From assembly GCA_963924555.1 (NCBI GenBank), contig OZ004593.1, forward strand, positions 744,001 to 808,000: a stretch of DNA of 64,000 bases, in the 5' to 3' direction. Under the pieces are notes generated by a model. The model was given only the letters and a program-made list of their open reading frames with translations. It did no database searches and had not been told where the DNA came from. The translations under genes and the position numbers were made by a program. This document shows positions 3,616-63,817 of this stretch, one piece after another. Source of the DNA: Crambe crambe. Lineage: Eukaryota; Porifera; Demospongiae; Poecilosclerida; Crambeidae. Within the stretch, counting starts at the first letter, position 1; each line of letters opens with the position of its first letter.

Positions 3616-6600
3616 ATGGCAAGTAAGGAATTAGAGAAAGTAAGTTGTAATACTGATGTTAATGATAATTGATATGGATCCATGATCAACACCTTGCTAG
3701 CTATAGGCGGTTAAGTTTGCAGCTGCATACAGACAAGTAGCAACTAACTGTGGCAGCTGCCGGTCGTAGTTTTAGCTTTATTGAAACTTGTACTTGGTAG
3801 CTAGCATAGGTCTATAAAAACTGGATAGCAGCTATTTTAACTTGCCTCTAGGCATAATTTTAGTGCCTATAGACTTTGCTTTTGAAAATAGCTAGTTAGT
3901 TACTGTTTAGCTATTGTTAGTTGTATCAGGTGGTGAGCTAATTTATCTATCCTCACAGATAAGGAAGATTATCAAGTATAATGAAAAGGTGAGTTAGTGC
4001 TGTGTGTGTGTGTGTGTGGTAAACCTTCTAGTGACCAATATTCATACCATGCCATATTTGGTTAGTTCCCATAATTCATGGCACTAGAGTCATGTTATCA
4101 TGTGTAGATAAGGACTTATGGTGAAAGGTTCATATCCTGCTATACCATCACCCTCATTCTATGCCCACTCATAACCCTGGGAGTGAAAGCAGGCCGTGTG
4201 CAGTGAGGGGTTGCTCATTGGCCCACTAAACTACATGACCTTCAAGTAGATGTTACCAGCATATTGTCCTCCATGTTTGGTGGACGTGCCTCATTCAGTG
4301 TCCATGCAGGACCCCTGCTTCAGTTTCGTCAAAAAATGCTGACTCAGCACTTAAAGATATACTCCCCAGCCGAGGGAATTGTGTGGGTCCTAGAGACTCA
4401 TGGACCCCATGGCTGTATAGAGCATAGTTCACTCTATATATTTGGAATCTACAACTCAAATGCCTTGCATGCTAGACCCCTGCTCAATTTTCTGCAAGCC
4501 ATTTTTGACATACAAATGTCCACTCAAGTGTGCCGAGGGAAGTGGGCGTGGTCTATTGAATCATAGACCCCTTGACCTTATAGAGCATGATTCACTCTAC
4601 AAGTTCTCCAAGTTTGGAGGCCGTAGCTCACATGCTGTGCGTGTGGTGATTTTTTTTTGTGGTGCATGATGGCTGTCTTTGTGTGTTGGTTGTATGGTTG
4701 TCTCACCTTCTCTCTCTCACTCCTCACAGAGGAAGGCAATCTGTCAGGGGGCGATAGAGGTCTATGAACAGGTGAGTGATGAGTGTAGCAGTGGTGTGAT
4801 GAGGGCGTGGCATGTGGCCCAGTCCATACCTGGTGTGTGTTCCATGTGTGCAGAAGATTGCTGGATGGCAGAAAAGCATCAATGACCCCTCCACTGATGA
4901 GAGTGAGAGGGAAAGGCTGAAGGGGGAGGTGGAGGAATATAAGGGAGCGATCCAGTGGTGTAAACAAGAAATTAATGACTATGATAAAGCAATTATTGCC
5001 TTAGGGGAAAAAGAAGGTAAGTCACAATAATAATTATACAAAGTACAAAGAAGTCATGTAATAGTGATGTTGTGGTTAATTAATTTTAACATGATGATGT
5101 AATTAATGTAGAATTAAATTTAATACGCATGTCACACGTAAGTAAGGTTAATTAGTATGAAAATTAATTAATTAAAAGGAGGTGAAATTAATTAATAATG
5201 TCTCAGGCCATAACTTTAGAATGCAATGAGCTATCAACTTCAAACAAAGTGCATTCTGTTCCAAAAAATTATTTCTTTCAGTCCTTGTGACTCAGTTGTG
5301 ATGTAATTAAGCATGAGTATGAGCTGTATAATTGTCCCTATAACATTTATACAATACTTGAGTGTATTGTAATTGTACTGACCTTTTTTATTCTTTTTCA
5401 GCTGATATCTTAGTCACCTTAGCCATTTCTGATGTGAAAAATCGAGACCTCTTCAAAGAAGCCATGCAAGGTGGCCACATCAAGTTCATACCTTTGGGAA
5501 TAGGCATATTTGGTTATGCTGGTTCTGGGAAGAGTCACGTTTTGGCGCTGATGTTAGGGGAACGCCCTCCTCGATTGCGTATCAGCACAGCCTGTGCCAC
5601 GAAGCCCGTACGAGCCATATCCCACAGTAGGATTGGGAGAGGTGGCAGGAAATTCAAGAGGATATGCGACAAGGATTACTCAAAGATGATGATGAAGACA
5701 GCAAGGGACAGTGTTGCTGGATGCAATGAGCCAACAGAATGCAGTGAGCCAACAGTTGTCAAGCTTAAGTGGAGTGAGAAGCTACGCAAGTTTTTCGAAA
5801 GGTCCCCCAAGTCCACTCCCCCCACTGCTCCCCCTGACCCCACTGACCAGGTAGAGAAGGATTTAATAGTAGACTTCCACCAACCAGGAGAGGATGTGGA
5901 GTCGTTGGAAGACCAGACTGTTGGAGACGTAACTGACAGTGGTGGACAACCCCAGTTCTTGGAAATACTGCCAAGATTTATCGATGATCTCTCCCTCGGC
6001 ATACTGGTGACCGACCTCAGCCAACGTCTGGACGACTATCCCGTGAATTACTACTTCAACGACCAGGGGCAGTCTGTTGGAGAAGGAGTGAAGTCATCAC
6101 TCACCAACGAGCAGATTCTCCGTCGTTTCATGCAGATGATCGTATCCAAATCTCAGGGAAGTAAACGTGTGAGGTTCGTATTTGTGGGCACACATCGGGA
6201 TTTGGAACACGTGTGCACCGAGTCGAGAGAGGAGAAGAATCGTAAGCTGAAGGACATGGTGAAGTCCTTTGGTCTGGAAGATAGTGTCATTTACCAGGAT
6301 CAGCATGAACTGATCTTTGCCCTCAATGCCAAGGAGCCTGAAGATGTGGATCATCAGAGAGCTGATGAGCTGGTAGATCTGATGATGGATGCTTCTTGTG
6401 CTGATTCCATCGCCATCCCAGTCAGCTATTATGGTGTGGAGTTAACTCTAAAGCAAAAGGTGCAGGAGTCAAATCAGATAGCATTCCCTGAATCAGAAAT
6501 CCTGAGCAAAGTAGCCCACTACCACTTCAACGAGGAGTCTCTGAAAGAAGCTTTGAGGTATCTTCACGACATTAAACGGATCTTCTACTTTGAGGAGGAT

Positions 6601-7892
6601 TTCCCTGGCGTGGTGATTGGAGAGCCTCAGGCCGTCCTCGATAAGCTGACCGAGTTAGTGGCATACCACATTGAGCTGACCACCAACCCCAAGAAGCAGA
6701 AAGCACTGGAAGGGAAGTGGAAGAAGTTCAGTCAGTGTGGGATCCTCGACATCGACTGTCTGAAGAAGTTCCCAGACCAGTATGTGGAGGGTGTATTCTC
6801 TCCTGCCGACATGATGAAGTTGTTTGAGAAGCTGTTCATTGTGTCAGAGGTGAATCAGGGGGAGTATTTGATGCCGTGCGTCTTACCCATGGATCCTCAA
6901 ACCAGCTGCAATCCAGAATGCGAGACACAATCGGTCCCACCCATGGTCCTCCACTTTACCAGAGGTGTGCCAAGACATGGGGTCTACTGTGGCACCATCT
7001 GCCACGTGATGACTGAGGCCAAGTGGAAGTTGTTAGAAGATCCCACGACTGGCGAGCCATTTCACATCACCAGAAATAGTGTCCATTTTTCTATTCCCGG
7101 CTATCGAGGGAAGGTCACCATCAATGACAGCCTCGACTCCTTCTTCCTGGTGTCTCTCCACATCCCTCGTGATGTACTGTCTTATTCTCAAACTCTATCT
7201 CAAATGTGCATAGAGGTCCGAGATACCCTCATCAAGGCAATCAACGACGTCACAGAGAAGCTAAACTACACTCCAGACAGCCCCGAGGTGGCCTTCCTGT
7301 GTGAGCAACACAAGGACCTTCCCCTCCATCCTGCCACAGTCTCCAAGATGGGAGATGAGTTGCTGTGTACCAAGAATAATGACAAAGGAGGAACTGTAAC
7401 TGACCAGCACAGGGTCTGGCTCAAAGGTGAGTGAAGTTAGTTGCATTCTTTTTGTAATTCATGAATTCATGATTGGGTGTTGACTGTATATGCACCTCCA
7501 GAAACTATATCTGCTTCTTCCAAAAAAGCCACTTCCCATAACCTATCAACAGCTGACCACTTCAAAGTTGCTAAAATCCTTGAGGATCTGAATAATGTGC
7601 AGCTGATACGCCTGGGCACTGCACTGGGGCTGAAGTATCCACACTTGCAGAGGATGCAGACCTTGCCTGACGATATGGTGTTTGCGTGGTTGAACATGGA
7701 AGACGAGGTGATGGACACCAGTGGTATTCCCACCTGGTCCAGTTTGATCAAAGCCCTAGAGGACACCGACCAGAAAGGGGTTGCTTCACGCATCAGGAAA
7801 GGTAAGTTTGGACCACCCTATTGTGTTGATGATTGTGTGATGTATTGTATCTATAATCCCTCATAGAGCAACACAGTAACCACCACAAGTGA
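3616..7892 (+). CDS. Roc-COR-like GTPase with variable helical N-terminus and C-terminal Death domain, copy A
   Basis: Predicted exons are 3616-3639, 3959-3988, 4730-4771, 4854-5016, 5402-7426, 7502-7801 and 7867-7892. Splice phases agree throughout and give 869 residues. Residues 1-86 are charged helix with variable positions. Residues 87-761 lie in one large exon. This exon carries Walker A GYAGSGKS (about 124-131), a G3-like DSGGQ (about 265-269), a G4-like GTHRD (about 349-353) instead of NKxD, and a COR-like segment (about 425-600, FYFEEDFP...VVIGEPQAVLDKL). Residues 762-861 resemble a Death domain (VQLIRLGTALGL, LRYPHL-type core, IPTWSSLIKAL). GTPases of this Roc-COR kind act as switches, and Death domains recruit signalling partners, so an intracellular sensor or adaptor is inferred. 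The start is the ATG of a tiny exon directly after a hairpin. It could be called a ROCO or NLR-like protein; the exact family needs a profile search. Confidence 0.8.
3959..5016 (+). other. Variable mini-exon segment of GTPase A (exons 2-4)
   Basis: Exons 2 (30 nt), 3 (42 nt) and 4 (163 nt) are all helix-forming. They read IRKIIKYNEK, RKAICQGAIEVYEQ, and KIAGWQKSIND followed by a conserved middle and EYKGAIQWCKQEINDYDKA. Cassettes B and C have the same exons and near-identical introns, but differ at exon 3 codons 1, 4, 5, 7, 8, 11 and 12 and at similarly spaced codons near the end of exon 4. The introns between them (741 and 82 nt) and the 385-nt intron after exon 4 are essentially unchanged between copies. 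Confidence 0.8.
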
Positions 7893-8151
7893 ACCATTCA
7901 CATCACATAACAGTTTGATCCTTTTTGTGTACGTGTATATATGTTTTGTTGACGACCTTTTACCAAATATTATTGCACTCACGCGCGCGCGAGACCAGAC
8001 TATAGTAGTCTAGACAGCCAGATTAATAATCTTTCTGCAGGTGGACCGAGGTGAGTGCTGGGATATGTGTGTCTTTGAGTGTAATATCGATCCTCCTCCT
8101 ATACACTAACAGCACTATCATAACTCTGGGAGTGCGCTTTATTCTGCTGTT

Positions 8152-11100
8152 ATGGAGGATGGAGAGCACACAGTATGTCACATTAGTGATGTGGTGGTGG
8201 AATTTCCCTTTCAACCTTACTCCTGTCAGCTGGCCTACATGGAGAAAGTCATCCAGGCCCTGCAAAAGGCAAGTCCTCATGGACACCTCCTGAGCTAAAC
8301 TAATCTCTTCCTTTCTAGAACACTGACGCCATTTTGGAGTCACCTACAGGGACTGGGAAGACACTGTGTCTGCTGTGTGCCACTCTCGGGTGGAGGGAGA
8401 ACCTGGTGGAAAAACTGAGGCAGCAATCTGGGGATCCAGGGGACATGGGAGGAGAAGGGGAGGAGTTAGATCCATGGGACTGTCCCCTACCCTCAGGTGT
8501 GTGTGTGTGTGTGTGTAGAGTAGGTAGCAGGGATAGTCATCAAGTCATCATCATCAAGGGTGAGAAGAATTTTTGATATCTTTTGATGCAGGTAGGAGTG
8601 GAGTAATGTCCAACGTTCTAAAGATTATTTATGCCTCTAGAACTCACTCACAACTCTCACAAGTCATCCAAGAGCTCAAGAACACCAAATACAGGTAGCT
8701 ATGGTAACAGGGTACAGATTGCCGAGTCCACTCCTTTTCTTCTTTTGGAATACAAATATCAGCTGTACTAAGTATGATCATCCCATTCAAGATGTTATTG
8801 GTTTCAGATATGGAACTGCTTTCCTTTGTCCCATTCCCAGACCCAGAGTCGCCATCATTGGTTCCAGGGAGCAGCTATGCATCTATGGAGAAGTATCCAA
8901 GAAGGAGACTAATGCAGAGAAGGTACTCTCCTTTGAAGCCCCCCCCCCCCAATTACCTTCATAATCAATTTTTCTCTGAGGTTCACTTATGCCGAGCAAA
9001 AGTGAAGAACCACAGCTACTTCTACTACAACAACACTGATGGTGAGTTTTGCTGACATGGCACTTATCGGGTGGTATTACTTTCACAATGCAGTGAGGAG
9101 ATTGAGTGGGATTGAACAGGTGATGGACGTGGAGGACCTGGTGCTAGTTGGTAGCAGGCAAAAGTAGGTGTGGCCTTCATATTACATGGAGGAGATGAAG
9201 TAATCCTCTTCCACATACAGAATGTGTCCTTATTATCTAGCAAAGGAGCTGAAATCCAATGCAGATGTGATATTCATTACATACTAGATTTAAAGGTCAG
9301 AATAGAGTCATGTGACTGTCATATGATGTGGATTAGTCCCTTTTTTTTGTTTGTTTGTTGTTGTTTTTTTGCAGACTCAGCAGATGCATGGTGTGGATGT
9401 GGAAGGGACTGTGGTGATATTGGACGAGGCTCACAACATAGTGAGTATTGGATGTGGAGGGTGACCTCTGTCTCACTGTTAGTGATTGTTGCACTCATGT
9501 ACGTAGGAGAGGGTGTGTGAGGACTCTGCATCCTTTGACCTCACGTCTAGTGACATTGCCCTGTGCATAGGGGACATCAGCCACATTCTCCTCAAGTACA
9601 AGCCGGACACTGATAGTCCCCAGGAGGAAGGTGGGTGTGGCAAAAAGGGGCAGGCCCTCAGTTACTGTTGCTATGCATGTTCTTTCAGGAGAGGAGGAAG
9701 ACATTCAAGATTATGTGAACTTAAAAGGTCAATTTAATAGTTTGTGTGGTGGTTGATGCTATTGCCCTGAATCTCTTTCAAACCCTCCATGTTTTGGATA
9801 CTTTGTAGCATCCTTACCCTTTTATGAAATGCCTTGCCCTTTGACCCTTCATGGTATTACCCTTGCCCTTTGACCCTTTATGATATCTGCAGAGTTTTTT
9901 CTGGCCATTGAGAGGACACTTGATAAAGTCACTTTTCCTAGTGGCAAGAAACAGGAGGTAGTCATGCCTGGAGAGTGAGTGTTGGAAATGTATCTTATGT
10001 TAGTCATCAGTCTTGACTTCTTCCTCCAGTTACATTTTCAAGTTCTTTGGTTCTGCTGGTCTGAGACAGGACACATGCAGCATGTTGCTGGACCAGTGTG
10101 CCAAGGCCATCACTTTCCTCACCACCGACCCTCACTCCGTCCACAGAAATGGAAACAACATACAAAAGTTTGTGGATGCTGTCAAGTAAGAAAAAGCTTT
10201 AAAATATTAGCATATCAATAACTGCCTTGTAGAGTGTTGGAATATTTGTTTCTTTTCTTAGATTGCGTTCAGCTCTGCCTCCACCCCCTCAGGCCGGAAT
10301 GCCTCCCATCACTATAAAGTGTTCATCAAGTCTGAAGAGAATCCATACAAGAACAAGAAGACTAACACATGGACTGTGTCTCCATCAGACACAACAAAAA
10401 GAGAAAGTAAATCCAAAAAATATTATGTCTTGTTGAAACTATTTCTTGTTGCAGTTCGTACCATTAGTTACTGGTGCTTTAGTCCTGGACATGCCTGCAG
10501 TTCGTACCATTAGTTACTGGTGCTTTAGTCCTGGACATGCCATGGCAGATTTAGTGAGACAAGGAGTACGATCTGTCATCTTGACCTCTCTCCCCTCAAC
10601 TCCTTCTCCTCAGAACTTCAAATGTATGTTCCTTCTTCAAACCTCCTCCTATTAGGTTCAATTTTCTACCCCCTTCTACTACTGCTGCTGTACGTAGAGA
10701 TTTCCCCATCAGCTATGAGGGTCCTCACGTCATCACGGAACAGCAGATCTGGGTGGGTGTGGTCTCAAAGGGATGTGACGGCATAGCTCTCAACTCGTGT
10801 TATAACAACAGGTAACTAACTTGTTAACAATATCAATATGGTGGTGTATTCTTTCTTCTTTTCTTTCAAAGGACAAATCTCTCCTACCAGAGTAGCCTTG
10901 GAAACACTCTTGGTAAGTTTATGGATAAGAGTCATGTGCCAGTCACATGTGCATGGACGAGAGTCATGTGCCAGTCACGTTATGATTGTTCTATGCCTTT
11001 CATTATAGTGAACTTCTCTGGTTCTGTACCCCATGGTCTCCTTGTCTTCTTCCCCTCCTACCCAGTCATGCATGGCTGTGTGGAAAAGTGGCAGGTGAGC

Positions 11101-12044
11101 TCTTGTATCACATGACCCTGTCACATGACCACATGCACCTGAGGCACCATCATCATGTGCTATGTACATTTTATCACATGACTTGATAGGAGAGTGGAAT
11201 TATGCAAAGGATTGAGCAAAATAAATCTGTCTTCCTGGAACCAAGGAGAAAGGCTGAATTCAACCCAGTGAGTTGTTATTTGTGTTTGTTTGTTTGTTTG
11301 TTTGTTTGTTTGTTCATTGTTTGTTGGTTGTGTTTCTAATTGCAGACGATGGATGCATTCTACGAGCATATCACTGATCCAGCTCAGTGTGTCGAGGGAA
11401 GGTGAGTTGGGCAAGTGTCATCATATTTTTCATCCTCTCTTTTTCTCTCTTGAAGGTGAGTGAGGGTTAGGACTTTGAAGACATGAATGGAAGAGCAGTG
11501 GTGATCACTGGTCTTCCCTATCCTCCGAGAATGGACCCAAAGGCAAGTGTGTGTATCCATCCTTACCAATCCTAGCCTCGTACCAAGGCTTTATCTTTTG
11601 TGGGGAGGAGGAAACTAAAAAGTGTAATGGAGCCCAAGGCATACACATGCAATGTATGCCACATCCTTTTCCTCTTCCTGTTTGAGGGATACAAGTTAGC
11701 ATTATGTAATCCATTCCCTATGGATGTAATACATGTCATGGTTTGAAACTCACTGGATTTTTTAATTTTTGGCAGGTGATGTTGAAGATGGAATACTTGC
11801 AAGACAATAAGCATTGTTATGATGTAAGTCTCTATCAACTACCATTAACATACCACATCACACACTGTCCACCAAAGCACGTGTGATGATTGTTGACATC
11901 TCCTGTCTCAGGGTCTGAGTGGGGAGGAGTGGTACAAGCAGCAAGCATCCCGTGCAGTCAACCAAGCCGTGGGGAGAGTCATTCGACATAAACATGACTA
12001 TGGTGCCATCATACTCTGTGACGAAAGGTACTTGAAATTGAGAA

Positions 12045-23909: not shown

Positions 23910-26900
23910 ATGGCAAGTAAGGAATTAGAGAAAGTAAGTTGTAATACTGATGTTAATGATAGTTGATATGGATCCATGATCAACGGCTTGCTAGCTATAG
24001 GCGGTTAAGTTTGCAGCTGCATACAGACAGGTAGCAACTAACTGTGGCAGCTGCCGGTCGTAGTTTTAGCTTTATTGAAACTTGTACTTGGTAGCTAGCA
24101 TAGGTCTATAAAAACTGGATAGCAGCTATTTTAACTTGCCTCTAGGCATAATTTTAGTGCCTCTAGACTTTGCTTTTGAAAATAGCTAGTTAGTTACTGT
24201 TTAGCTATTGTTAGTTGTATCAGGTGGTGAGCTAATTTATCTATCCTCACAGATAAGGAAGGAAATTGAGAGAAAGAAAGAGGTGAGTTAGTGCTGTGTG
24301 TGTGTGTGTGTGTGTGATAACCTTCTAGAGACCAATATTCATACCATGCCATATTTGGTTATTTCCCATAATTCATGGCACTAGAGTCATGTTATCATGT
24401 GTAGATAAGGACTTATGGTGAAAGGTTCATATCCTGCTATACCATCACCCTCATTCTATGCCCACTCATAACCCTGGGAGTGAAAGCAGGCTGTGTGCAG
24501 TGAGGGGTTGCTCATTGGCCCACTAAACTACATGACCTTCAAGTAGATGTTACCAGCATATTGTCCTCCATGTTTGGTGGACGTGCCTCATTCAGTGTCC
24601 ATGCAGGACCCCTGCTTCAGTTTCGTCAAGAAATGCTGACTCAGCACTTAAAGATATACTCCCCAGCCGAGGGAATTGTGTGGGTCCTAGAGACTCATGG
24701 ACCCCATGGCTGTATAGAGCATAGTTCACTCTATATATCCTCCATGTTTGGAATCTACAACTCGAATGCCTTGCATGCTAGACCCCTGCTCAATTTTCTG
24801 CAAGCCATTTTTGACATACAAATGTCCACTCAAGTGTGCCGAGGGAAGTGGGCGTGGTCTATTCACTCATGGACCCCTTGACCTTATAGAGCATGATTCA
24901 CTCTACAAGTTCTCCAAGTTTGGAGGCCGTAGCTCACATGCTGTGCGTGTGGTGATTTTTTTTTGTGGTGCATGATGGCTGTCTTTGTGTGTTGGTTGTA
25001 TGGTTGTCTCACCTTCTCTCTCTCACTCCTCACAGTCGAAGGCATACCATCAGAGGATGATAGAGCGCTGGGAACAGGTGAGTGATGAGTGTAGCAGTGG
25101 TGTGATGAGGGTGTGGCATGTGGCCCAGTCCATACCTGGTGTGTGTTCCATGTGTGCAGGAGATTGCTGGATGTCAGAGAAGCATCAATGACCCCTCCAC
25201 TGATGAGAGTGAGAGGGAAAGGCTGAAGGGGGAGGTGGAGGAATATAAGAGATGGATCCAGAGTAATAAACGATCAATTAATAGAATCGATAAAGCAATT
25301 ATTGCCTTAGGGGAAAAAGAAGGTAAGTCACAATAATAATTATACAAAGTACAAAGAAGTCATGTAATAGTGATGTTGTGGTTAATTAATTTTAACATGA
25401 TGATGTAATTAATGTAGAATTAAATTTAATATGCATGTCACACGTAAGTAAGGTTAATTAGTATGAAAATTAATTAATTAAAAGGAGGTGAAATTAATTA
25501 ATAATGTCTCAGGCCATAACTTTAGAATGCAATGAGCTATCAACTTCAAACAAAGTGCATTCTGTTCCAAAAAATTATTTCTTTCAGTCCTTGTGACTCA
25601 GTTGTGATGTAATTAAGCAGGAGTATGAGCTGTATAATTGTCCCTATAACATTTATACAATACTTGAGTGTATTGTAATTGTACTGACTGTTTTGATTGT
25701 TTTGATGCTTTTTCAGGTGATGCATTAGCCACCTTAGCTATTTCTGATGTGAAAAATCGAAACCTCTTCAAAGAAGCCATGCGAGGTGGCCACATCAAGT
25801 TCATACCTTTGGGAATAGGCATATTTGGTTATGCAGGTTCTGGGAAGAGTCACGTTTTGGCACTGATGTTAGGGGAACGCCCTCCTCGATTGCGTATCAG
25901 CACAGCCTGTGCCACGAAGCCCGTACGAGCCATATCCCATAGTAGGATTGGGAGAGGTGGCAGGAAATTCAAGAGGATATGCGACAAGGATTACTCAAAG
26001 ATGATGATGAAGACAGCAAGGGACAGTGTTGCTGGATGCAATGAGCCAACAGAATGCAGTGAGCCAACAGTTGTCAAGCTTAAGTGGAGTGACAAGCTAT
26101 GGAAGTTTTTTGAAAGGTTCTCGAAGCCTACTCCCCCCACTGCTCCCCCTGACCCCCCTGACCCCACTGACCAGGTAGAGAAGGATTTAATAGTAGACTT
26201 CCACCAACCAGGAGAGGATGTGGAGTCGTTGGAAGACCAGACTGTTGGAGACGTAACTGACAGTGGTGGACAACCCCAGTTCTTGGAAATACTGCCAAGA
26301 TTTATCGATGATCTCTCCCTCGGCATACTGGTGACCGACCTCAGCCAACGTCTGGACGACTATCCCGTGAATTACTACTTCAACGACCAGGGGCAGTCTG
26401 TTGGAGAAGGAGTGAAGTCATCACTCACCAACGAGCAGATTCTCCGTCGTTTCATGCAGATGATCGTATCCAAATCTCAAGGAAGTAAACGTGTGAGGTT
26501 CATATTTGTGGGCACGCATCGGGATTTAGAACACGTGTGCACTGAGTCGAGAGAGGAGAAGAATCGTAAGCTGAAGGACATGGTCGTGTCCTTTGGTCTG
26601 GAAGATAGCGTCATTTACCAAGATCAACAGTTTAACAAGCTTATCTTTGCCCTCAACGCCAAGGAGCCTGAAGATGCGGATCGTCAAAGAGCTGATGAGC
26701 TGGTAGATCTGATGATGGATGCTTCTGCCGCTGATTCCATCACCATCCCAGTCAGCTATTATGGTGTGGAGTTGACTCTAAAGCAAAAGGTGCAGGAGTC
26801 AAATCAGATAGCATTCCCTGAATCAGACATCCTGAGTGAAGTAGCCCACTACCACTTGAACGAGGAGTCCTTGAAGGGAGCTTTGCAGTATCTTCACAAT

Positions 26901-30882: not shown

Positions 30883-31035
30883 CTGATGGTCTCTCACTTC
30901 TTTCAGTACTCGTGGTATACTCTTCTCCCTCAACAGAATGAAATACTATAAAATTTGATGATTGAATTAGTTAGGTTTTAAAATTGATTTTCTTAATCAA
31001 AGGTGAAGTAGGGATATAGTCTTCGACTGGCGTGC

Positions 31036-31490
31036 AGTCATATATAGTTAGCTAGTACATATTCCAGTCATATATAGTTAGCTAGTACATATTCCAGTCA
31101 TATATAGTTAGCTAGTACATATTCCAGTCATATATAGTTAGCTAGTACATATTCCAGTCATATATAGTTAGCTAGTACATATTCCAGTCATATATAGTTA
31201 GCTAGTACATATTCCAGTCATATATAGTTAGTTAGTACATATTCCAGTCATATATAGTTAGCTAGTACATATTCCAGTCATATATAGTTAACTAGTACAT
31301 ATTCCAGTCATATATAGTTAGCTAGTACATATTCCAGTCATATATAGTTAACTAGTACATATTCCAGTCATATATAGTTAGCTAGTACATATTCCAGTCA
31401 TATATAGTTAACTAGTACATATTCCAGTCATATATAGTTAGCTAGTACATATTCCAGTCATATATAGTTAGCTAGTACATATTCCAGTTA
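31036..31490 (+). repeat. 30-bp satellite, about 15 copies
   Basis: The unit catatatagttagctagtac followed by atattccagt is nearly perfect. A few copies have gttagt or aactag in place of gctag. The three aactag variants alternate with standard units near 31290-31420, suggesting 60-bp higher-order expansion. Confidence 0.97.
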
Positions 31491-32275
31491 GATTTTGGGG
31501 CCATATGGCTTTGTTTGATATGATGCTGCAGCCTAGCTAGATTTTTGGGTATCATAATTATAGCTACTTCACATTTTTATTTAGAAGAAATTTTTTTGCA
31601 TTCATGCACTTAGACCGTCTTCATAGATCACCTTGAAAAGGTCATGTAGCGAGCTATAAATTGCATATCATTTCATTTTAAAACCTGCAAGCCCTTTATG
31701 GATTTTCAATACTTATATATGCAGCTTCTATTCAGCTGATGATGAAAACATCCATGCATATTATTAATAGTATTCTAGCTTTATAGCTATATATATGCCT
31801 CTAAAATGAAATGGTCAAACATGTACTTCGAAGTGTCAGAATGTGATGTATTCCAGATCAAATTTGGCCCTTTTGTTCAAATGCTTTGTAGACATTACTG
31901 CTAGGTAGCTAAGCCTAATACTAGCTATGTAGAGTGATATCTAATTGATGGATAAGTCCATAACAAATTGGAGAGGTTCTTATTTCCCTACACATAGTAT
32001 ACGTGTATAGATCCTGCTTATATGGTCCCTTTTGATTGATAACAACAGCAAACAAAATGCATGCATGCTCTACAGTTGCCATTTTCACTTCCGTTACTCA
32101 GCACTTGCTGAATTGAAAGCAGTGATAGCCAATTATTCTTAATGAACTGCATGTTGACAACTCTCTTGCTCTAGCCTTAGCTTCATTCCCTACAGTGCAT
32201 GACTCTATGGACCCTTTTGAAGCAAACATCATAAAAGAATTAATGGAAGAATCAAAATGTACAGTAGTCAAGCAA
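31491..32275. other. AT-rich interval without recognised gene
   Basis: No exon series or domain was seen on either strand. A tttatttagaagaaattt motif near 31579-31597 resembles the end of the foldback element at 46148-46359, so part may be a diverged relative. Confidence 0.5.
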
Positions 32276-33082
32276 TTATTTGTCATATGGAGAAATTCCT
32301 TTACATATTTTCTTTGAAAGCTCGGGTGCTGGGCCTTTTGACCGAGTACTATATCGCTTTCTTGATGATGTGCTGGGAATGGTGGGCTGAGGGCAGTGAG
32401 GGGGACCATCAGTGACCTTCTTGGGGGAGCAGCCTGTTTTAATCTGCATGTCAGCTTGAGCTTCAACAAGTAGATGGATTTGTGCAAGATTATTCAGCAT
32501 TATCTCATCTGAAAGAAATGTTTCCATAAAGTCATCACTTTGCAGTAAGTAAGGTGAAAATGGTGTAGAAGTAGGTGGTGGAGATGGAATATCTTGAGCA
32601 GGTGGTGGAGATTGAACAGGTGGTGGAGATGGAATATCTTGAGCAGGTGGTGGAGATTGAACAGGTGGTGGAGATGGAATATCTTGAGCAGGTGGTGGAG
32701 ATTGAACAGGTGGTGGAGATGGAATATCTTGAACAGGTGGCGGAGATGGAATATCTTGAACAGGTGGTGGAGATGGAATATCTTGAGCAGGTGGTGGAGA
32801 TTGAACAGGTGGTGGAGATGGAATATCTTGAACAGGTGGCGGAGATGGAATATCTTGAACAAGTGGTGGAGATGGAATATCTTGAGCAGGTGGTGGAGAT
32901 TGAACAGGTGGTGGAGATGGAATATCTTGAACAGGTGGCGGAGATGGAATATCTTGAACAGGTGGCGGAGATGGAATATCTTGAACAGATGGCGGAGATG
33001 GAATATCTTGAACAGGTGGTGGAGATGGAATATCTTGAATAGGTGGTGGAGATTTCTTTGTGGTTGCTGTATGCATGTACAT
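32276..33082 (-). CDS. Proline-rich repeat protein or 3' exon, function unknown
   Basis: The open frame on the minus strand is built of two alternating units, SPPPVQDIP (27 bp) and SPPPVQ/A (18 bp), for about 155 residues. A non-repetitive tail follows with TPFSPYLLQSDDFMETFLSD, a Ser/Thr/Lys-rich basic stretch (SSRKRYSTRSKG), and the end ISPYDK. A possible acceptor (cag) lies just upstream of the codons for TTKKSPPP, so it may be the last exon of a larger gene rather than start at the first Met. The unit lengths are multiples of three, so frame is kept through expansions. I do not recognise a family. It lies inside the inverted-repeat block downstream of the decayed helicase gene. Confidence 0.45.
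   Translation of the reverse strand: MYMHTATTKKSPPPIQDIPSPPPVQDIPSPPSVQDIPSPPPVQDIPSPPPVQDIPSPPPVQSPPPAQDIPSPPLVQDIPSPPPVQDIPSPPPVQSPPPAQDIPSPPPVQDIPSPPPVQDIPSPPPVQSPPPAQDIPSPPPVQSPPPAQDIPSPPPVQSPPPAQDIPSPPPTSTPFSPYLLQSDDFMETFLSDEIMLNNLAQIHLLVEAQADMQIKTGCSPKKVTDGPPHCPQPTIPSTSSRKRYSTRSKGPAPELSKKICKGISPYDK
32575..33045. repeat. Coding minisatellite, 27-bp and 18-bp units
   Basis: On the plus strand the units read ggtggtggagatggaatatc followed by ttgaaca or ttgagca, and ggtggtggagattgaaca. About twelve 27-bp and five 18-bp units alternate irregularly. On the minus strand they encode the SPPPVQDIP and SPPPVQ repeats. Confidence 0.95.
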
Positions 33083-33439
33083 ATATAAAATAGACTAGCA
33101 ATTACTTTCATGATAATTATACAGAAGTTTAAAATAAACACACAGTAAAATCAGTACACAATTCACACTTCTTTATCACAAGAACTTCTTTAAAAAATAA
33201 GTATAACACTAGGGTATGTTCATGTAACATTCAATCGGTGAGCGAAGCAGTTGGTGAAAGTCATTTGTACTTTGAACTTTGATTATTGGGCTAAGATATT
33301 GCAGTGGTTGTGGCAGCTGAGGCTTAACACAAACACTTAGAAAGCCAAGTGCCTCAATCTACTTAGGTCTCTATGACAAAATGCTGTAGAAAGCAATAAG
33401 CTCTAGGTGTTTGTTCTAAGTGCTATCATTTGTGGCTAG

Positions 33440-55080: not shown

Positions 55081-58000
55081 ATGGCAAGTAATGAATTACG
55101 GAAGGTAAGTTGTAATACTGGTTGATCATGTTAATGACGATTATGGATCCATGATCAACAGCTTGCTAGCTAGTAGGCGGTTAAACTTGCAGCTGCATAC
55201 AGACAGGTAGCAACTAACTGTGCAGCTGCCGGTCGTAGTTTTAGCTTTATTGAAACTTGTACTTGGTAGCTAGCATAGGTCTATAAAACTGGATAGCAGC
55301 TATTTTAACTTGCCTCTAGGCATAATTTTAGTGCCTATAGACTTTGCTTTTGAAAATAGCTAGTTAGTTACTGTTTAGCTATTGTTAGTTGTATCAGGTG
55401 GTGAGCTAATTTATCTATCCTCACAGATAAGGAAGAATATCGAGAGATATAAAGGGGTGAGTTAGGGGTGAGTGTGTGTGTGAGTGTGTGGTAACCTAGA
55501 GACCAATATTCATACCATGCCATATTTGGTTATTTCCCATAATTCATGGCACTAGAGTCATGTTATCATGTGTAGATAAGGACTTATGGTGAAAGGTTCA
55601 TATCCTGCTATACCATCACCCTCATTCTATGCCCACTCATAACCCTGGGAGTGAAAGCAGGCTGTGTGCAGTGAGGGGTTGCTCATTGGCCCACTAAACT
55701 ACATGACCTTCAAGTAGATGTTGCCAGCATATTGTCCTCCATGTTTGGTGGACGTGCCTCATTCAGTGTCCATGCAGGACCCCTGCTTCAGTTTCGTCAA
55801 GAAATGCTGACTCAGCACTTAAAGATATACTCCCCAGCCGAGGGAATTGTGTGGGTCCTAGAGACTTATGGACCCCATGGCTGTATAGAGCATAGTTCAC
55901 TCTATATATCCTCCATGTTTGGAATCTACAACTCGAATGCCTTGCATGCTAGACCCCTGCTCAATTTTCTCCAAGCCATTTTTGACATACAAATGTCCAC
56001 TCAAGTGTGCCGAGGGAAGTGGGCGTGGTCTATTGAATCATAGACCCCTTGACCTTATAGAGCATGATTCACTCTACAAGTTCTCCAAGTTTGGAGGCCG
56101 TAGCTCACATGCTGTGCATGTGGTGATTTTTTTTTGTGGTGCATGATGGCTGTCTTTGTGTGTTGGTTGTATGGTTGTCTCACCTTCTCTCTCTCACTCC
56201 TCACAGACGAAGGCAGTGAATCAGTGGTTTATAGAGTACAGGGAACAGGTGAGTGATGAGTGTAGCAGTGGTGTGATGAGGGCGTGGCATGTGGCCCAGT
56301 CCATACCTGGTGTGTGTTCCATGTGTGCAGTGGATTGCTGGATGGCAGAAAAGCATCAATGACCCCTCCACTGATGAGAGTGAGAGGGAAAGGCTGAAGG
56401 GGGAGGTGGAGAGATATAAGGGATACATCCAGAAGTATAAACAAGGAATAAATCACTATGATAAAGAAATTATTGCCTTAGGGGAAAAAGAAGGTAAGTC
56501 ACAATAATAATTATACAAAGTACAAAGAAGTCATGTAATAGTGATGTTGTGGTTAATTAATTTTAACATGATGATGTAATTAATGTAGAATTAAATTTAA
56601 TACGCATGTCACACGTAAGTAAGGTTAATTAGTATGAAAATTAATTAATTAAAAGGAGGTGAAATTAATTAATAATGTCTCAGGCCATAACTTTAGAATG
56701 CAATGAGCTATCAACTTCAAACAAAGTGCATTCTGTTCCAAAAAATTATTTCTTTCAGTCCTTGTGACTCAGTTGTGATGTAATTAAGCAGGAGTATGAG
56801 CTGTATAATTGTCCCTATAACATTTATACAATACTTGAGTGTATTGTAATTGTACTGACTGTTTTGATTGTTTGATGCTTCCAGCTGAAATCATCTCAGC
56901 CATTTCTGATGTGAAAACTCGAGACCTCTTCAAAGAAGCCATGAAGAAAAGCTGCCTTGAATACCCACAATTAAGAGTAACGATATTTGGTTATGCTGGA
57001 TCTGGGAAGAGCCACGTCCTTGCTCTCATGCTCGGGGAACCTCCTCCTGAAGTACGCATCAGCACAGCCTGTGCCAAGAAGCCAGTACGAACCATATCCC
57101 ACAGTAGATTTGGTGTAGATGAGAAAGTATTAAAGAGAATAGGCGAAGAGGAGTATTCGCAAATGATGATGAAGACAGCCAGGGATGGTGTCTCAAAGTC
57201 CAAATTCCTAAAGTTCAGAGGGAAACTGTACAAGGTTTTCAAATATGTGGCTTCTGAGCCGACTGATGAAGTGGAAAAGGATCTGATAGTTCAGTTCCAC
57301 AAACACGAAGCTAGTGTGGAATCCCTTGAAGGCCAGACTGTGGGGGAGGTGACTGACAGCGGTGGACAGCCTCAGTTCTTGGAAATACTTCCAAGGTTCA
57401 TCGATAACCTCTCCCTCGGCATACTGGTGACCGACCTCAGCCAACGTCTGGACGAGTGTCCCATGAGTTACTACTACAACAGCCAGGGGGAGCCTATCGG
57501 GGAAGGAGTGAGATCGTTACTTACAAATGAGCAGATCCTCTGTCGATGCATGCAAATGATCGTCTCACAGTCCCAAGGGGATAGACGTGTGAGGTTTGTG
57601 TTCGTGGGCACTCATCGTGATCTGGAGCACGAATGCACCGAGTCAAGGGAGGAAAAGAATCGGAAGCTAATAGAGATGGTGAAGTCCTTTGATCTGGAAG
57701 ACAGCGTCATCTACAGCAACCAGCAGTTCAACGAGCTGATCTTTGCCCTCAATGCCAAGGAGCCCGAGGAAGCTGACTACCAAACAGCTGGGATGCTGAT
57801 AGAGCTGATGATGGACAGGTCTGCAGCCAAGACTATTCGCATCCCAGTCAACTACCATGGTGTGGAGCTGACTCTGAAGCAGAAGGTACAAAAGTCCAAT
57901 CAGATCGCATTCCTTGAGTCTGAGATCTTGCAAGATGTGGCCCACTTTCACTTGACAAAGGATACACTGAAGAGAGCTTTAAGATACCTGCACAACATTA

Positions 58001-59318: not shown

Positions 59319-59574
59319 ACCTTTCACATCACATAACAGTTTTTGTGTACGTGTGTATATGTTTTGTTGATGACCTTTTACCAAATATTATTGCACTCAC
59401 GCGCGCGCGAGACCAGACTATAGTAGTCTAGCTAGACTAGCCAGATTAATAATCTTTCTGCAGGTGGACCGAGGTGAGTGCTGGGATATGTGTGTCTTTG
59501 AGTGTAATATCGATCCTCCTCCTATACACTAACAGCAGTATCATAACTCTGGGAGTGCGCTTTATTCTGCTGTT

Positions 59575-62500
59575 ATGGAGGATGGAGAGCACACAGTATG
59601 TCACATTAGTGATGTGGTGGTGGAATTTCCCTTTCAACCTTACTCCTGTCAGCTGGCCTACATGGAGAAAATCATCCAGGCCCTGCAAAAGGCAAGTCCT
59701 CATGGACACCTCCTGAACTAAACTAATCTCTTCCTTTCTAGAACACTAACACCATTTTGGAGTCACCTACAGGGACTGGGAAGACACTGTGTCTGCTGTG
59801 TGCCACTCTCGGGTGGAGTGAGAACCTGGTGGAAAAACTGAGGCAGCAATCTGGGGATCCAGGGGACATGGGAGGAGAAGGGGAGGAGCTAGATCCATGG
59901 GACTGTCCCCTACCCTCAGGTGTGTGTGTGTGGAGTAGGTAGCAGGGATAGTCATCAAGTCATCATCAAGGGTGAGAAGAATTTTTGATATCTTTTGATG
60001 CAGGTAGGAGTGGAGTAATGTCCAACGTTTCAAAGATTATTTATGCCTCTAGAACTCACTCACAACTCTCACAAGTCATCCAAAAGCTCAAGAACACCAA
60101 ATACAGGTAGCTATGGTAACAGGGTACAGATTGCCGAGTCCACTCCTTTTCTTCTTTTGGAATAAAAATATCAGCTGTACCAAGTATGATCATCCCATTC
60201 AAGATGTTATTGGTTTCAGATATGGAACTGCTTTCCTTTGTCCCATTCCCAGACCCAGAGTCGCCATCATTGGTTCCAGGGAGCAGCTATGCATCCATGG
60301 AGAAGTATCCAAGAAGGAGACTAATGCAGAGAAGGTACTCTCCTTTGAAGCCCCCCCCCCAATTACCTTCATAATCGATTTTTCTCTGAGGTTCACTTAT
60401 GCCGAGCAAAAGTGAAGAACCACAGCTGCTTCTACTACAACAACACTGATGGTGAGTTTTGCTGACATGGCACTTATCGGGTGGTATTACTTTCACAATG
60501 CAGTGAGGAGATTGAGTGGGATTGAACAGGTGATGGACGTGGAGGACCTGGTGCTAGTTGGTAGCAGGCAAAAGTAGGTGTGGCCTTCATATTACATGGA
60601 GGAGATGAAGTAATCCTCTTCCATATACAGAATGTGTCCTTATTATCTAGCAAAGGAGCTGAAATCCAATGCAGATGTGATATTCATGCCCTATAACTAC
60701 ATACTAGATTTAAAGGTCAGAATAGAGTCATGTGACTGTCATATGATGTGGATATGTCCCTTTTTTTGTTTGTTCGTTGTTGTTGTTTTTGCAGACTCGG
60801 CAGATGCATGGTGTGGATGTGGAAGGGACTGTGGTGATATTGGACGAGGCTCACAACATAGTGAGTATTGGATGTGGAGGGTGACCTCTGTCTCACTGTT
60901 AGTGATTGTTGCACTCGTATGTACGTAGGAGAGGGTGTGTGAGGACTCTGCATCCTTTGACCTCACGTCTAGTGACATTGCCCTGTGCATAGGGGACATC
61001 AGCCACATTCTCCTCAAGTACAAGCCGGACACTGATAGTCCCCAGGAGGAAGGTGGGTGTGGCACAAAGGGGCAGGCCCTCGGGTACTGTTGCTATGCAT
61101 GTTGTTTCAGGAGAGGAGGAAGACATTCAAGATTATGTGAACTTAAAAGGTCAGTTGAATAATGGTGTGTGATTGCTGATGCTGTTAACCTGAATCTCTT
61201 TCAAGCCCTCCATGTTTTTGGATACTTTTGTGGCCTGACCTAGCATCCTTGCCCTTTATGATATGCTTACCCTACTCTTGCCCTTTGACCCTTTGACCCT
61301 TCATGATATCTGCAGAGTTTTTTCTGGCCATTGAGAGGACACTTGATAAAGTCACTTTTCCTAGTGGCAAGAAACAGGAGGTAGTCATGCCTGGAGAGTG
61401 AGTGTTGGATGTGTATCTTATGTTAGTCATCAGTCTTGACTTCTTCCTCCAGTTACATCTTCAAGTTCTTTGGTTCTGCTGGTCTGAGACAGGACACATG
61501 CAGCATGTTGCTGGACCAGTGTGCCAAGGCCATCACTTTCCTCACCACCGACCCTCACTCCGTCCACAGAAATGGAAACAACATACAAAAGTTTGTGGAT
61601 GCTGTCAAGGTAAGAAAAAGCTTAATTTTAGCATATCAATAACTGCCTTGTAGAGTTTTTGAATATTTGTTTCTTTTCTTAGATTGCATTCAGCTCTGCC
61701 TCCACCCCCTCAGGCCGGAATTCCTCCCATCACTATAAAGTGTTCATCAAGTCTGAAGAGAATCCGTACAAGAACAAGAAGACTAACACATGGACTGTGT
61801 CTCCATCAGACACAACAAAAAGAGAAAGTAAATATAAATAAAAAAAGATATGTCTTGTTGAAACTATTCCTTGTTGCAGTTCGTACCATTAGTTACTGGT
61901 GTTTTAGTCCTGGACATGCCATGGCAGATCTAGTGAGACAAGGAGTACGATCCGTCATCTTGACCTCAGGCACTCTCTCTCCCCTCAACTCCTTCTCCTC
62001 AGAACTTCTAATGTATGTTCCTTCTTCAAACCTCCTATTAGGTTCATGTTAACTCAATTTTCTACCCCCTTCTACTACTGCTGCTGTATGTAGAGATTTC
62101 CCCATCAGCTATGAGGGTCCTCACGTCATCACGGAGCAGCAGATCTGGGTGGGTGTGGTCTCAAAGGGATGTGATGGCATAGCTCTCAACTCGTGTTATA
62201 ACAACAGGTAACTAACTGGTTAACAATATCAATATGGTGGTATTATTCTTTCTCCTTTTCTTTCAAAGGACAAATCTCTCCTACCAGAGTAGCCTTGGAA
62301 ACACTCTTGGTAAGTTTATGGATAAGAGTCATGTGCCAGTCACATGTGCATGGACGAGAGTCATGTGCCAGTCACGTTATGATTGTTCTATGCCTTTCAT
62401 TATAGTGAACTTCTCTCGTTCTGTACCCCATGGTCTCCTTGTCTTCTTCCCCTCCTACCCAGTCATGCATGGCTGTGTGGAAAAGTGGCGGGTGAGCTCT

Positions 62501-63817
62501 TGTATCACATGACCTTGTCACATGACCACATGCACCTGCGGCACCATCATCATGTGCTATGTACATTTTATCACATGACTTGATAGGAGAGTGGAAATAT
62601 GCAAAGGATTGAGCAAAATAAATCTGTCTTCCTGGAACCAAGGAGAAAGGCTGAATTCAACCCAGTGAGTTGTTATTTGTGTTTGTTTGTTTTTTGTTTT
62701 TTTTGTTTGTTTGTTTGTTCGTTTGTTTGTTTGTTTGTTTGTTCATTGTTTGTTGGTTGTGTTTCTAATTGCAGACGATGGATGCATTCTACGAGCATAT
62801 CACTGACCCAGCTCAGTGTGTCGAGGGAAGGTGAGTTGGGCAAGTGTCATCATGTTTTTCATTCATAATGTTATCCTCTCTCTCTCTCTCTTGAAGGTGA
62901 GTGAGGGTTTGGACTTTGCAGACATGAACGGAAGAGCAGTGGTGATCACTGGTCTCCCCTATCCTCCAAGAATGGACCCAAAGGCAAGTGTGTGTATCCA
63001 TCCTTACCAATCCTAGCCTCGTACCCAGGCTTTATCTTTTGTGTAGATAGACTACTAAAAAGTGTAATGGAGCCCAAGGCATACACATGCAATGTAAGCC
63101 ACACCCTTTTCCTCTTCCTGTTTGAGGAATACAAGCTAGCATTATGTAATCCATTCCCTATGGATGTAATACATGTCATGGTTTGAAACTCACTGGATTT
63201 TTTAAATTTTTGGCAGGTGATGTTGAAGATGGAATACTTGCAAGACAATAAGCATCAACTACCATTAACATACCACATCACACACTGTCCAGCAAAGCAC
63301 GTGTGATGATTGTTGACATCTCCTGTCTGAGGGTCTGAGTGGGGAGGAGTGGTACAAGCAGCAAGCATCCCGTGCAGTCAACCAAGCCGTGGGGAGAGTC
63401 ATTCGACATAAACATGACTATGGTGCCATCATACTCTGTGACGAAAGGTACTTGAAATTGAGAAGCAGAGAGAGAGAGAGAGAGACAGAGAGACTCACTT
63501 CTAGGTGTCATGGAAGTCCTGGATTCTATATTATGGGGAAACCCCTCTCTATTCATGCATGTAGATTTGGGTCGTCCAGTGCTGTGAAGCAGCTGCCTCA
63601 GTGGGTGAGACCTCATGTGAAGACCTACAGCAAGTTTGGAGTGGTGCAACGCGACCTCAACCTTTTCTTCAAGAATGCAGAAAAGGAGGTGAATTAGTGT
63701 CACTGTCCCTAATTAGGGGGACATCCTCATTGATTGTGGTAGCTTCTAAACACCTTTCATTTTGTTGTCGTTCAGTTTTGGTTCCAAAATTGCAAGTAGG
63801 AAGCTTCCAGCTGATAT
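59575..63817 (+). pseudogene. RTEL1: RTEL1-like helicase, copy C, truncated at its 3' end
   Basis: The same exon series as copy A from ATG 59575: [41 protein letters not shown] with [72 protein letters not shown] and QAVGRVIRH. The sites broken in copy A are intact here, so this preserves the better helicase core. However, about 20 bases including the donor after QDNKH (near 63255) are missing compared with 11815-11835. The exon for the region after the helicase core is also cut at 63817. As it stands the gene lacks a normal end. Copies A and C are complementary in their damage. Confidence 0.8.

Follow-up and report, generated by a model that had tools for sequence, protein, structure and literature searches.

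How can a 42-nucleotide (nt) coding exon change at seven of its 14 codons from one gene copy to the next when the intron beside it hardly changes at all? The question is raised by three GTPase genes, here called copies A, B and C, in a 64,000-nt stretch of the genome of the sponge Crambe crambe (the window; positions 744001-808000 of contig OZ004593.1, C16 in our numbering, assembly GCA_963924555.1, 143.1 Mb in 119 contigs). A preliminary description of the window had counted 13, 14 and 11 base differences in exon 3 between A and B, A and C, and B and C, respectively, all in codons 1, 4, 5, 7, 8, 11 and 12 and all amino-acid-changing, next to an 82-nt intron at most one base apart; a scripted recount returned exactly these values, with 1, 0 and 1 differences in the intron. 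Here we report that this exon occurs in at least 79 cassettes spread over five chromosomes, and that the proteins concerned are predicted to carry a Roc-COR GTPase fold. We think it rather likely that these are Roco recognition proteins in which one face of a helical hairpin is diversified by very strong selection, the scaffold being homogenised by ectopic gene conversion.

The extent of the family was read from the borders of exon 3. A 35-nt pattern at the junction of exon 3 and intron 3 had 77 matches in the genome, on C8, C15, C16, C17 and C18 (64 exact, 12 with one mismatch, none with two and one with three), and the reversed pattern, used as a control, had none; a 40-nt pattern lying 5' of exon 3 had 73 matches, 72 of them exact. 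Two of the 77 border matches share a single locus (L063) and three cassettes were found from the left pattern only, so that 79 cassettes were read. Exon 3 is 42 nt long in 77 of these, 60 nt in L017 and 36 nt in L070. There is one exon 3 per cassette, at sites kilobases apart, the exception being a partial duplication in L063. The GT after exon 3 has been lost in one of the 79, L085, and intron 3 carries indels in L085-L087. As to the irregular loci, the long exon of L017 contains an apparent 18-nt in-frame repeat, that of L070 has two codons fewer, and the duplication in L063 covers 49 nt with a remnant of the exon end. Two C18 loci, L079 and L082, form a diverged pair with the same exon 3, altered scaffold codons and altered flanks.

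Among the 77 copies with a 42-nt exon 3, 74 sequences are distinct, and identity was found in 3 of 2,926 copy pairs. Each of the seven variable codons occurs as 9 to 21 codon types. When the 74 distinct copies were compared (the duplicates L026, L062 and L082 being excluded here, and likewise from the reduced linkage test and the nucleotide-association test below), the variable codons gave 15,897 pairwise differences, of which 58 were synonymous; the seven other codons gave 2,008, 201 of them synonymous. Almost purely amino-acid-changing variation, first noted in three copies, also holds in this larger set. The non-variable codons are near-fixed down to the third base, which at codons 3, 6 and 13 does not vary in any of the 77 copies; an exception is codon 10, where 14 of the 77 copies have replaced E by K or R. 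We do not rely on the NG86 (Nei and Gojobori) ratio of nonsynonymous to synonymous proportions, pN/pS, which is 3.9 at the variable codons, because multi-step paths inflate pS and the direct count of same-amino-acid differences is clearer. Proline and stop codons are absent from all 539 variable positions. Tryptophan occupies 63 of these, against 108 of 13,087 non-proline codons in exon 5, and tyrosine and arginine occupy 96 and 69; by analogy, the tryptophan excess resembles that of binding surfaces. Mean heterozygosity is 0.29 at the third base of the variable codons, compared with 0.58 at the first and 0.55 at the second, and the third base is almost fixed at codons 1, 5 and 11. A, G and T are all common at the variable bases.

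The layout of the cassette in the window is given below. Exons 2 and 3 are in phase 0 at both ends, and splicing of the cassette exons is presumed from their GT-AG borders and open frames.

3616..3639, plus strand: exon 1 of copy A (MASKELEK), from its ATG, open frame and GT donor.
3959..3988, plus strand: exon 2 of copy A (IRKIIKYNEK), phase 0-0, differing among copies (scripted recount of the window and reading of long loci).
4230..5260, plus strand: the core, in which copies of one chromosome group differ at few intron positions; it spans about -500 to +530 relative to exon 3 (six pairwise profiles).
4650..4829, plus strand: the island, with 0.98-1.00 identity among chromosome groups except in exon 3, falling to 0.92 over the 20 nt that follow (sliding identity, 54 copies; flank patterns).
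4730..4771, plus strand: exon 3 of copy A (RKAICQGAIEVYEQ), the hypervariable 14-codon mini-exon, variable at codons 1, 4, 5, 7, 8, 11 and 12 (scripted recount).
4772..4853, plus strand: intron 3, 82 nt, near-invariant in most clustered copies (border pattern search; identity to consensus).
4854..5016, plus strand: exon 4 of copy A, predicted to hold the end of helix 1, a loop and helix 2, with heptad-spaced variable codons (variability; AlphaFold2, pLDDT 95).
5017..5401, plus strand: intron 4, 385 nt (sequence and sliding identity).
5402..7426, plus strand: exon 5 of copy A, a putative Roc-COR-like GTPase with the P-loop GYAGSGKS (translation; COR-A match of 18.9 bits, under the Pfam cutoff; fold search).
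7502..7801, plus strand: exon 6 of copy A, death-domain-like by eye only, with no Pfam match (Pfam scan).
24253..24282, plus strand: exon 2 of copy B (scripted recount).
25036..25077, plus strand: exon 3 of copy B (SKAYHQRMIERWEQ; scripted recount).
25160..25322, plus strand: exon 4 of copy B (scripted recount).
55427..55456, plus strand: exon 2 of copy C (scripted recount).
56207..56248, plus strand: exon 3 of copy C (TKAVNQWFIEYREQ; scripted recount).
56331..56493, plus strand: exon 4 of copy C (scripted recount).

The near-identity of the introns that had been seen in the window also extends genome-wide. In 20-nt bins over 54 copies, identity among chromosome groups is 0.98-1.00 in the island (about 4650-4829), as opposed to 0.30 to 0.94 over 4270-4609 and 0.19 to 0.88 over 4850-5389. 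Clustered copies match their consensus with a mean of 0.983 in intron 3 (minimum 0.73) and 0.994 over the 80 nt to the left of exon 3; this consensus of 70 copies omits L085-L087, L079, L082, L073, L077 and the two copies with other exon lengths, and the intron statistics of the synonymous-count analysis also leave out L085-L087. Homogenisation has reached the silent sites between the variable codons to about the same degree as the introns. Partly synonymous variation in the mini-exon and introns as diverged as the exon, the two patterns named beforehand as contrary to the preliminary description, were not found among the clustered copies.

Exon 3 is decoupled from the divergence of its flanks. 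Four within-group pairs have no differences in 461-481 nt of flanking intron, yet 4-5 of their seven variable codons differ; in two of these pairs (L012/L015 and L019/L029) each changed codon differs at 2-3 nt, and in the remaining two the changed codons mostly differ at one. For 814 of 842 within-group pairs (28 lie beyond the bins), the number of exon 3 codon differences stays flat, at 5.42-5.85, as intron divergence runs from 0 to 0.2. No correlation of exon 3 similarity with flank similarity was found on C18 and C8; on C17, with the identical pair L025/L026 included, r is 0.26-0.37. The number of differing codons, out of seven, is 5.72 between copies that share a chromosome and 5.94 between copies on different chromosomes. 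Near-identical exon 3 sequences were observed across C16 and C18 in two cases (L018/L083 and L011/L059), which are possible recent interchromosomal transfers.

The identity of the flanks could not be used as a clock of duplication. That use was rejected because divergence rises outside the core in several pairs, so flank identity may reflect exchange. Among the six pairs profiled, divergence outside the core climbs steeply in L009/L010, to 32% per 250-nt bin, and it climbs upstream of the core in L026/L027 and L012/L015; L025/L026 show zero changes across 500 nt, exons 3 and 4 included. Intrinsic constraint on the flanks was our first reading, given the exact border matches in 64 of 77 cases, and was set aside after the flanks of solo relatives proved to be diverged. 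A search with exon 4 gave 47 matches (all 80 candidates scored), four of them outside the clusters. Three of these four solos keep a recognisable in-frame 42-nt exon 3 (TKAYWQKIIELNNL, RKAWVQGVIDLNEQ and LKTILQGAIEDSVQ); in the fourth, L090, exon 3 was not recognised. The left 80 nt of the three are 0.71, 0.56 and 0.65 identical to the cluster consensus, respectively. Intron 3 is 54 nt long with an identity of 0.63 in L091 and 72 nt long with an identity of 0.81 in L092 (the 10-nt border called in L089 is a false early match, and its value of 0.12 is unused), and the solos have diverged third bases such as CAA and GCT. Because these three keep the exon frame with diverged flanks, exchange among the clustered copies seems, on the sequences compared, a better explanation of flank identity than constraint, in agreement with the earlier suggestion that conversion homogenises everything other than the variable codons.

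The positions of the variable codons follow the predicted structure of the protein. In exon 4, codons 1, 4, 5, 25, 28, 29, 32, 35, 36, 39, 42, 43 and 46 vary in at least one of four chromosome groups, and some synonymous variation is seen elsewhere in the exon (tables leave out L017, L018, L077, L037, L049, L079, L082, L045, L046 and L073 for frame or length). The alternation of variable and conserved codons at the end of exon 4 that had been described in the window is real, and the variable codons have heptad spacing. Exon 2, recognised in 18 of 20 long loci and read by eye, also varies among copies, in our reading of the sequences in the same register as exons 3 and 4. Variability clusters on one side of a helix in exon 3 (mean resultant length 0.54, permutation p = 0.0017) and in exon 4 (p <= 0.0008 in each of the four groups), as expected from the one-sided helix surface that had been proposed. 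AlphaFold2 folds exon 4 into a helix at residues 2-10, a loop and a second helix at 16-53, with a pLDDT of 95; Foldseek returned no matches to this hairpin at E <= 0.001. On this model, variability would be confined to one side of a helical hairpin.

The remainder of the protein points to a Roco GTPase. In 20 of 20 long loci exon 5 is open over 669-811 codons, and in one further reading, of a C18 copy, over 676 codons. Domain matches are below threshold: Roc in a C17 copy reached E = 4.4e-5 at 24.1 bits, under the Pfam cutoff of 27, and COR-A reached 18.9 bits, the cutoff being 35.3. In a Foldseek search with an AlphaFold2 model of exon 5 (pLDDT 81.7), the top four matches were LRRK2, LRRK1 (two) and a Chlorobium Roco protein (E 1e-13 to 6e-12) at a moderate TMq of 0.42-0.48, with the Roco COR domain 3dpt at a TMt of 0.66; the model also matches Rab proteins structurally. 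Exon 5 is accordingly modelled as a GTPase with a predicted Roc-COR fold. A death domain in exon 6, suggested by eye, was unsupported, the Pfam scan giving no family at E <= 1, and no leucine-rich repeats (LRR) appeared when the spliced N-terminus of copy A was scanned against Pfam. A search for homologous proteins returned 398. Among the best 120, none covers more than 81% of the query, which is roughly what exon 5 contributes, and four only have a Pfam entry or source name. A Roco-like exon-5 family gave 461 first-look candidates genome-wide, of which 64 were scored; such genes occur on C10, C11, C15 and other chromosomes, with dozens on C11 tens of kilobases apart.

The seven codons of exon 3 are near linkage equilibrium. 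The observed variance in sharing was reached in 29 of 200 shuffles with the duplicate pairs reduced, and in 13 of 200 with the three duplicate pairs kept. On C18, exon 3 and exon 4 codons taken together reached it in 162 of 500 shuffles; exon 4 codons alone are associated (5 of 500). Nucleotide associations are strong inside codons and on average near zero past 6 nt, with one long-range exception, between the first bases of codons 8 and 12 (z 5.9). Association between adjacent codons is marginal (z 1.1-2.2). The third base of codon 4 and the first base of codon 5 are associated (z 11.5), with C before T or C, or G before A or G, at this junction in 64 of 77 copies; it may be that CpG avoidance or double substitutions are responsible.

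How, then, could such a pattern be maintained? We suggest that the genes form a family of Roco (Roc-COR) GTPases with an N-terminal helical hairpin, encoded by exons 2-4. One face of this hairpin would be the recognition surface: heptad positions a, d and e of helix 1, which runs from exon 2 through exon 3 into the beginning of exon 4, together with a matching stripe on helix 2. The clustered genes would form one exchanging pool, in which frequent ectopic gene conversion around exon 3, with tracts of perhaps 0.2 kb between chromosomes and up to about 1 kb within a cluster, would homogenise introns, silent sites and scaffold codons. Very strong diversifying selection, probably through an advantage of rare types, would replace face residues faster than neutral sites mutate, so that each copy would soon have its own combination. 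Since silent sites within exon 3 are homogenised, exchange must run through exon 3; the variable codons are nearly without trace of it, and face turnover would therefore have to exceed the exchange rate, and the exchange rate the neutral mutation rate. Very strong diversifying selection in a large population could plausibly give such turnover, and mutational bias, or reassortment of codon states of single origin, may contribute. The cassette genes are presumed to be expressed, and ligand or nonself recognition is their presumed function.

Several observations weigh against this explanation. Conversion tracts should carry exon 3 with them, yet only 3 of 2,926 pairs are identical and the codons are near linkage equilibrium, so that turnover must beat exchange. 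C makes up 6% and 5% of variable first and second bases, compared with 21% and 21% in exon 5. In simulations in which every amino-acid-changing point mutation was accepted and silent ones never, 0-1 of 200 runs gave as few synonymous alternatives as are observed at codons 1, 4 and 7, and 6-7 of 200 did so for codon 8; codons 5, 11 and 12 are compatible with the same simulations. Plain mutation plus selection does not predict the depletion of C or the codon lexicon at codons 1, 4, 7 and 8. The contrast between the core and its surroundings is weak in L009/L011, and weak downstream in L012/L015 and L025/L026. Before duplicates and outliers were removed, the near-left flank and intron 4 gave a Mantel r of 0.30-0.64; in the rerun, which leaves out L073, L077, L079 and the duplicates, the left-right correlation is 0.22 (C18, 0.22 +/- 0.16), 0.58 and -0.03, with large errors, and the Mantel argument for tracts crossing exon 3 was dropped. 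Lastly, the control for constraint consists of three solo copies, which may not be functional.

Some of these points would be accommodated if the copying of a cassette also rewrote its face codons, selection then only filtering out prolines, stops and broken scaffolds. Such mutagenic exchange, or a codon-targeted mutator, would suit the pairs with zero-difference flanks that are already 4-5 codons apart (two of them by 2-3-nt changes), the near-zero mean nucleotide association past 6 nt, the restricted codon lexicon with its shortage of C, and the less variable third base, nearly fixed at codons 1, 5 and 11. Yet the variable positions track helix geometry in exons 3 and 4 despite different exon 4 scaffolds, which selection explains directly. 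Moreover, copying is not always mutagenic, as L025/L026 are unchanged over 500 nt; no lone template was found among the flank matches (exon 3 is present in 79 of the 79 read, and 20 were checked as whole genes); and variation is not limited to one template base. We therefore regard a mutator as unlikely. Slightly more doubtful again is an animal germline mechanism in which cassettes of about 180 bp are copied ectopically and, in the same process, have particular codons rewritten, mostly at bases 1 and 2, as a eukaryotic counterpart of the diversity-generating retroelements; if true, it would yield receptors by the dozen, each with an independent, random set of residues on one face of the helix. 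A different possibility, in our view quite improbable, is that the face codons are old balanced states, each with one or a few origins, shuffled by extremely short patches, neutral sites looking young because they drift to fixation in the pool. The use of about one codon per amino acid at most positions, the near linkage equilibrium past 6 nt and the few interchromosomal near-matches (L018/L083, L011/L059) agree with such reassortment, but exchange breakpoints would be needed every 3-6 nt, and adjacent codons are associated only marginally.

The flanks might alternatively be a conserved splicing or regulatory element and exon 3 an ordinary fast-evolving sequence, as the exact 40 nt upstream in 72 of 73 matches and the exact 35-nt border in 64 of 77 could suggest. 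However, solos with the same exon frame are only 0.56-0.71 identical over the left 80 nt and have shorter or altered introns, and intron 3 tolerates indels in L085-L087; this makes such an element very improbable. The genetics could also be as we propose and the function another, the face setting which paralogues pair (oligomerisation specificity) and not binding a foreign ligand. Roc-COR proteins dimerise, and a helical hairpin with heptad-spaced variation would be apt for pairing; we nonetheless find this somewhat unlikely, as the excess of W, Y and R (63, 96 and 69 of 539) and the little covariation fit an open interface better. An artefact of assembly or pseudogenes might be suspected from the multi-copy nature of the region and from stops in exon 4 in a few copies (L018, L037 and L077), but it is hardly credible: exon 5 is open in 20 of 20 long loci, errors are not expected to be almost purely nonsynonymous, and the source assembly is described in the consulted part of its report as long-read and chromosome-level, with a QV of 58.1 (PMC12166358). 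On balance, selection plus conversion is the most likely explanation, a targeted or mutagenic process being possible.

Elsewhere in the window, near-identical segments lie downstream at 8016-11146 and 59439-62543; by eye they encode a helicase, which we take to resemble RTEL1. An array of 30-nt units occupies 30945-31613, and an array of 9/18-nt units at 32542-33084 sits within a 272-codon open frame on the minus strand.

If our explanation holds, the sponge genome would appear to encode a combinatorial recognition repertoire, comparable to a natural library of binding surfaces: at least 79 loci share a helical scaffold joined to a Roco GTPase, and almost every one of them has a combination of its own. 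Foreign tissue is rejected by sponges, which also harbour a dense microbiota. The face codons are saturated with differences and the silent and intronic sites 1-3 nt from them are near-invariant, a contrast so extreme that selection alone and targeted mutation could be told apart directly by resequencing. Judging by titles and the beginnings of abstracts, none of the papers listed on sponge receptors, Roco proteins and concerted evolution described a receptor family of such architecture, and the papers listed on Crambe allorecognition contained nothing on Crambe.

Partial parallels exist in several known systems. Diversity-generating retroelements are prokaryotic and adenine-specific, work with a reverse transcriptase and a template repeat, and leave an identical scaffold with randomised face codons. 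Exon 3 of the sponge genes is like them in its identical scaffold and randomised face codons, and appears to differ in that A, G and T are all common at the variable bases. Conotoxin and other venom families, as far as the accounts consulted go, likewise combine conserved positions with a coding segment that is hypervariable, and preserve codons in a site-specific way; unlike the sponge proteins, they are secreted toxins. Intron conservation is known in conotoxin families, and a targeted mutator has been proposed for them; we know of no dispersed exchange pool in venom families with near-invariant sites 1-3 nt from variable codons. The LRR-ROCO genes of brown algae share with the sponge genes, in the sections of the source available to us, the Roc-COR domains, a diversified N-terminus made of small in-phase exons and positive selection on one face; their LRR exons are 72 bp long, in phase 2, several per gene and shuffled (PMC11378527), whereas the sponge genes have a single 42-nt phase-0 exon each, and the Pfam scan of copy A found no LRR. 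The closest known case, on the part of the published account consulted, is that of the NWD genes (het-d/het-e/hnwd) of Podospora anserina, NLR genes whose WD40 repeats show concerted evolution, both inside a gene and from gene to gene, with diversifying selection at 4 codons of the interaction surface across 69 repeats (PMC1805685). Common to both are many near-identical units in which a few surface codons carry nearly all the variation; homogenisation across loci and nonsynonymous variation of the face codons are both found in the sponge, where the face probably binds. The Podospora units, as described there, are tandem repeats inside one gene, forming a beta-propeller in a fungus with repeat-induced point mutation, whereas the sponge genes have one unit per gene, on five chromosomes of an animal, in a predicted helical hairpin whose face codons are near linkage equilibrium.

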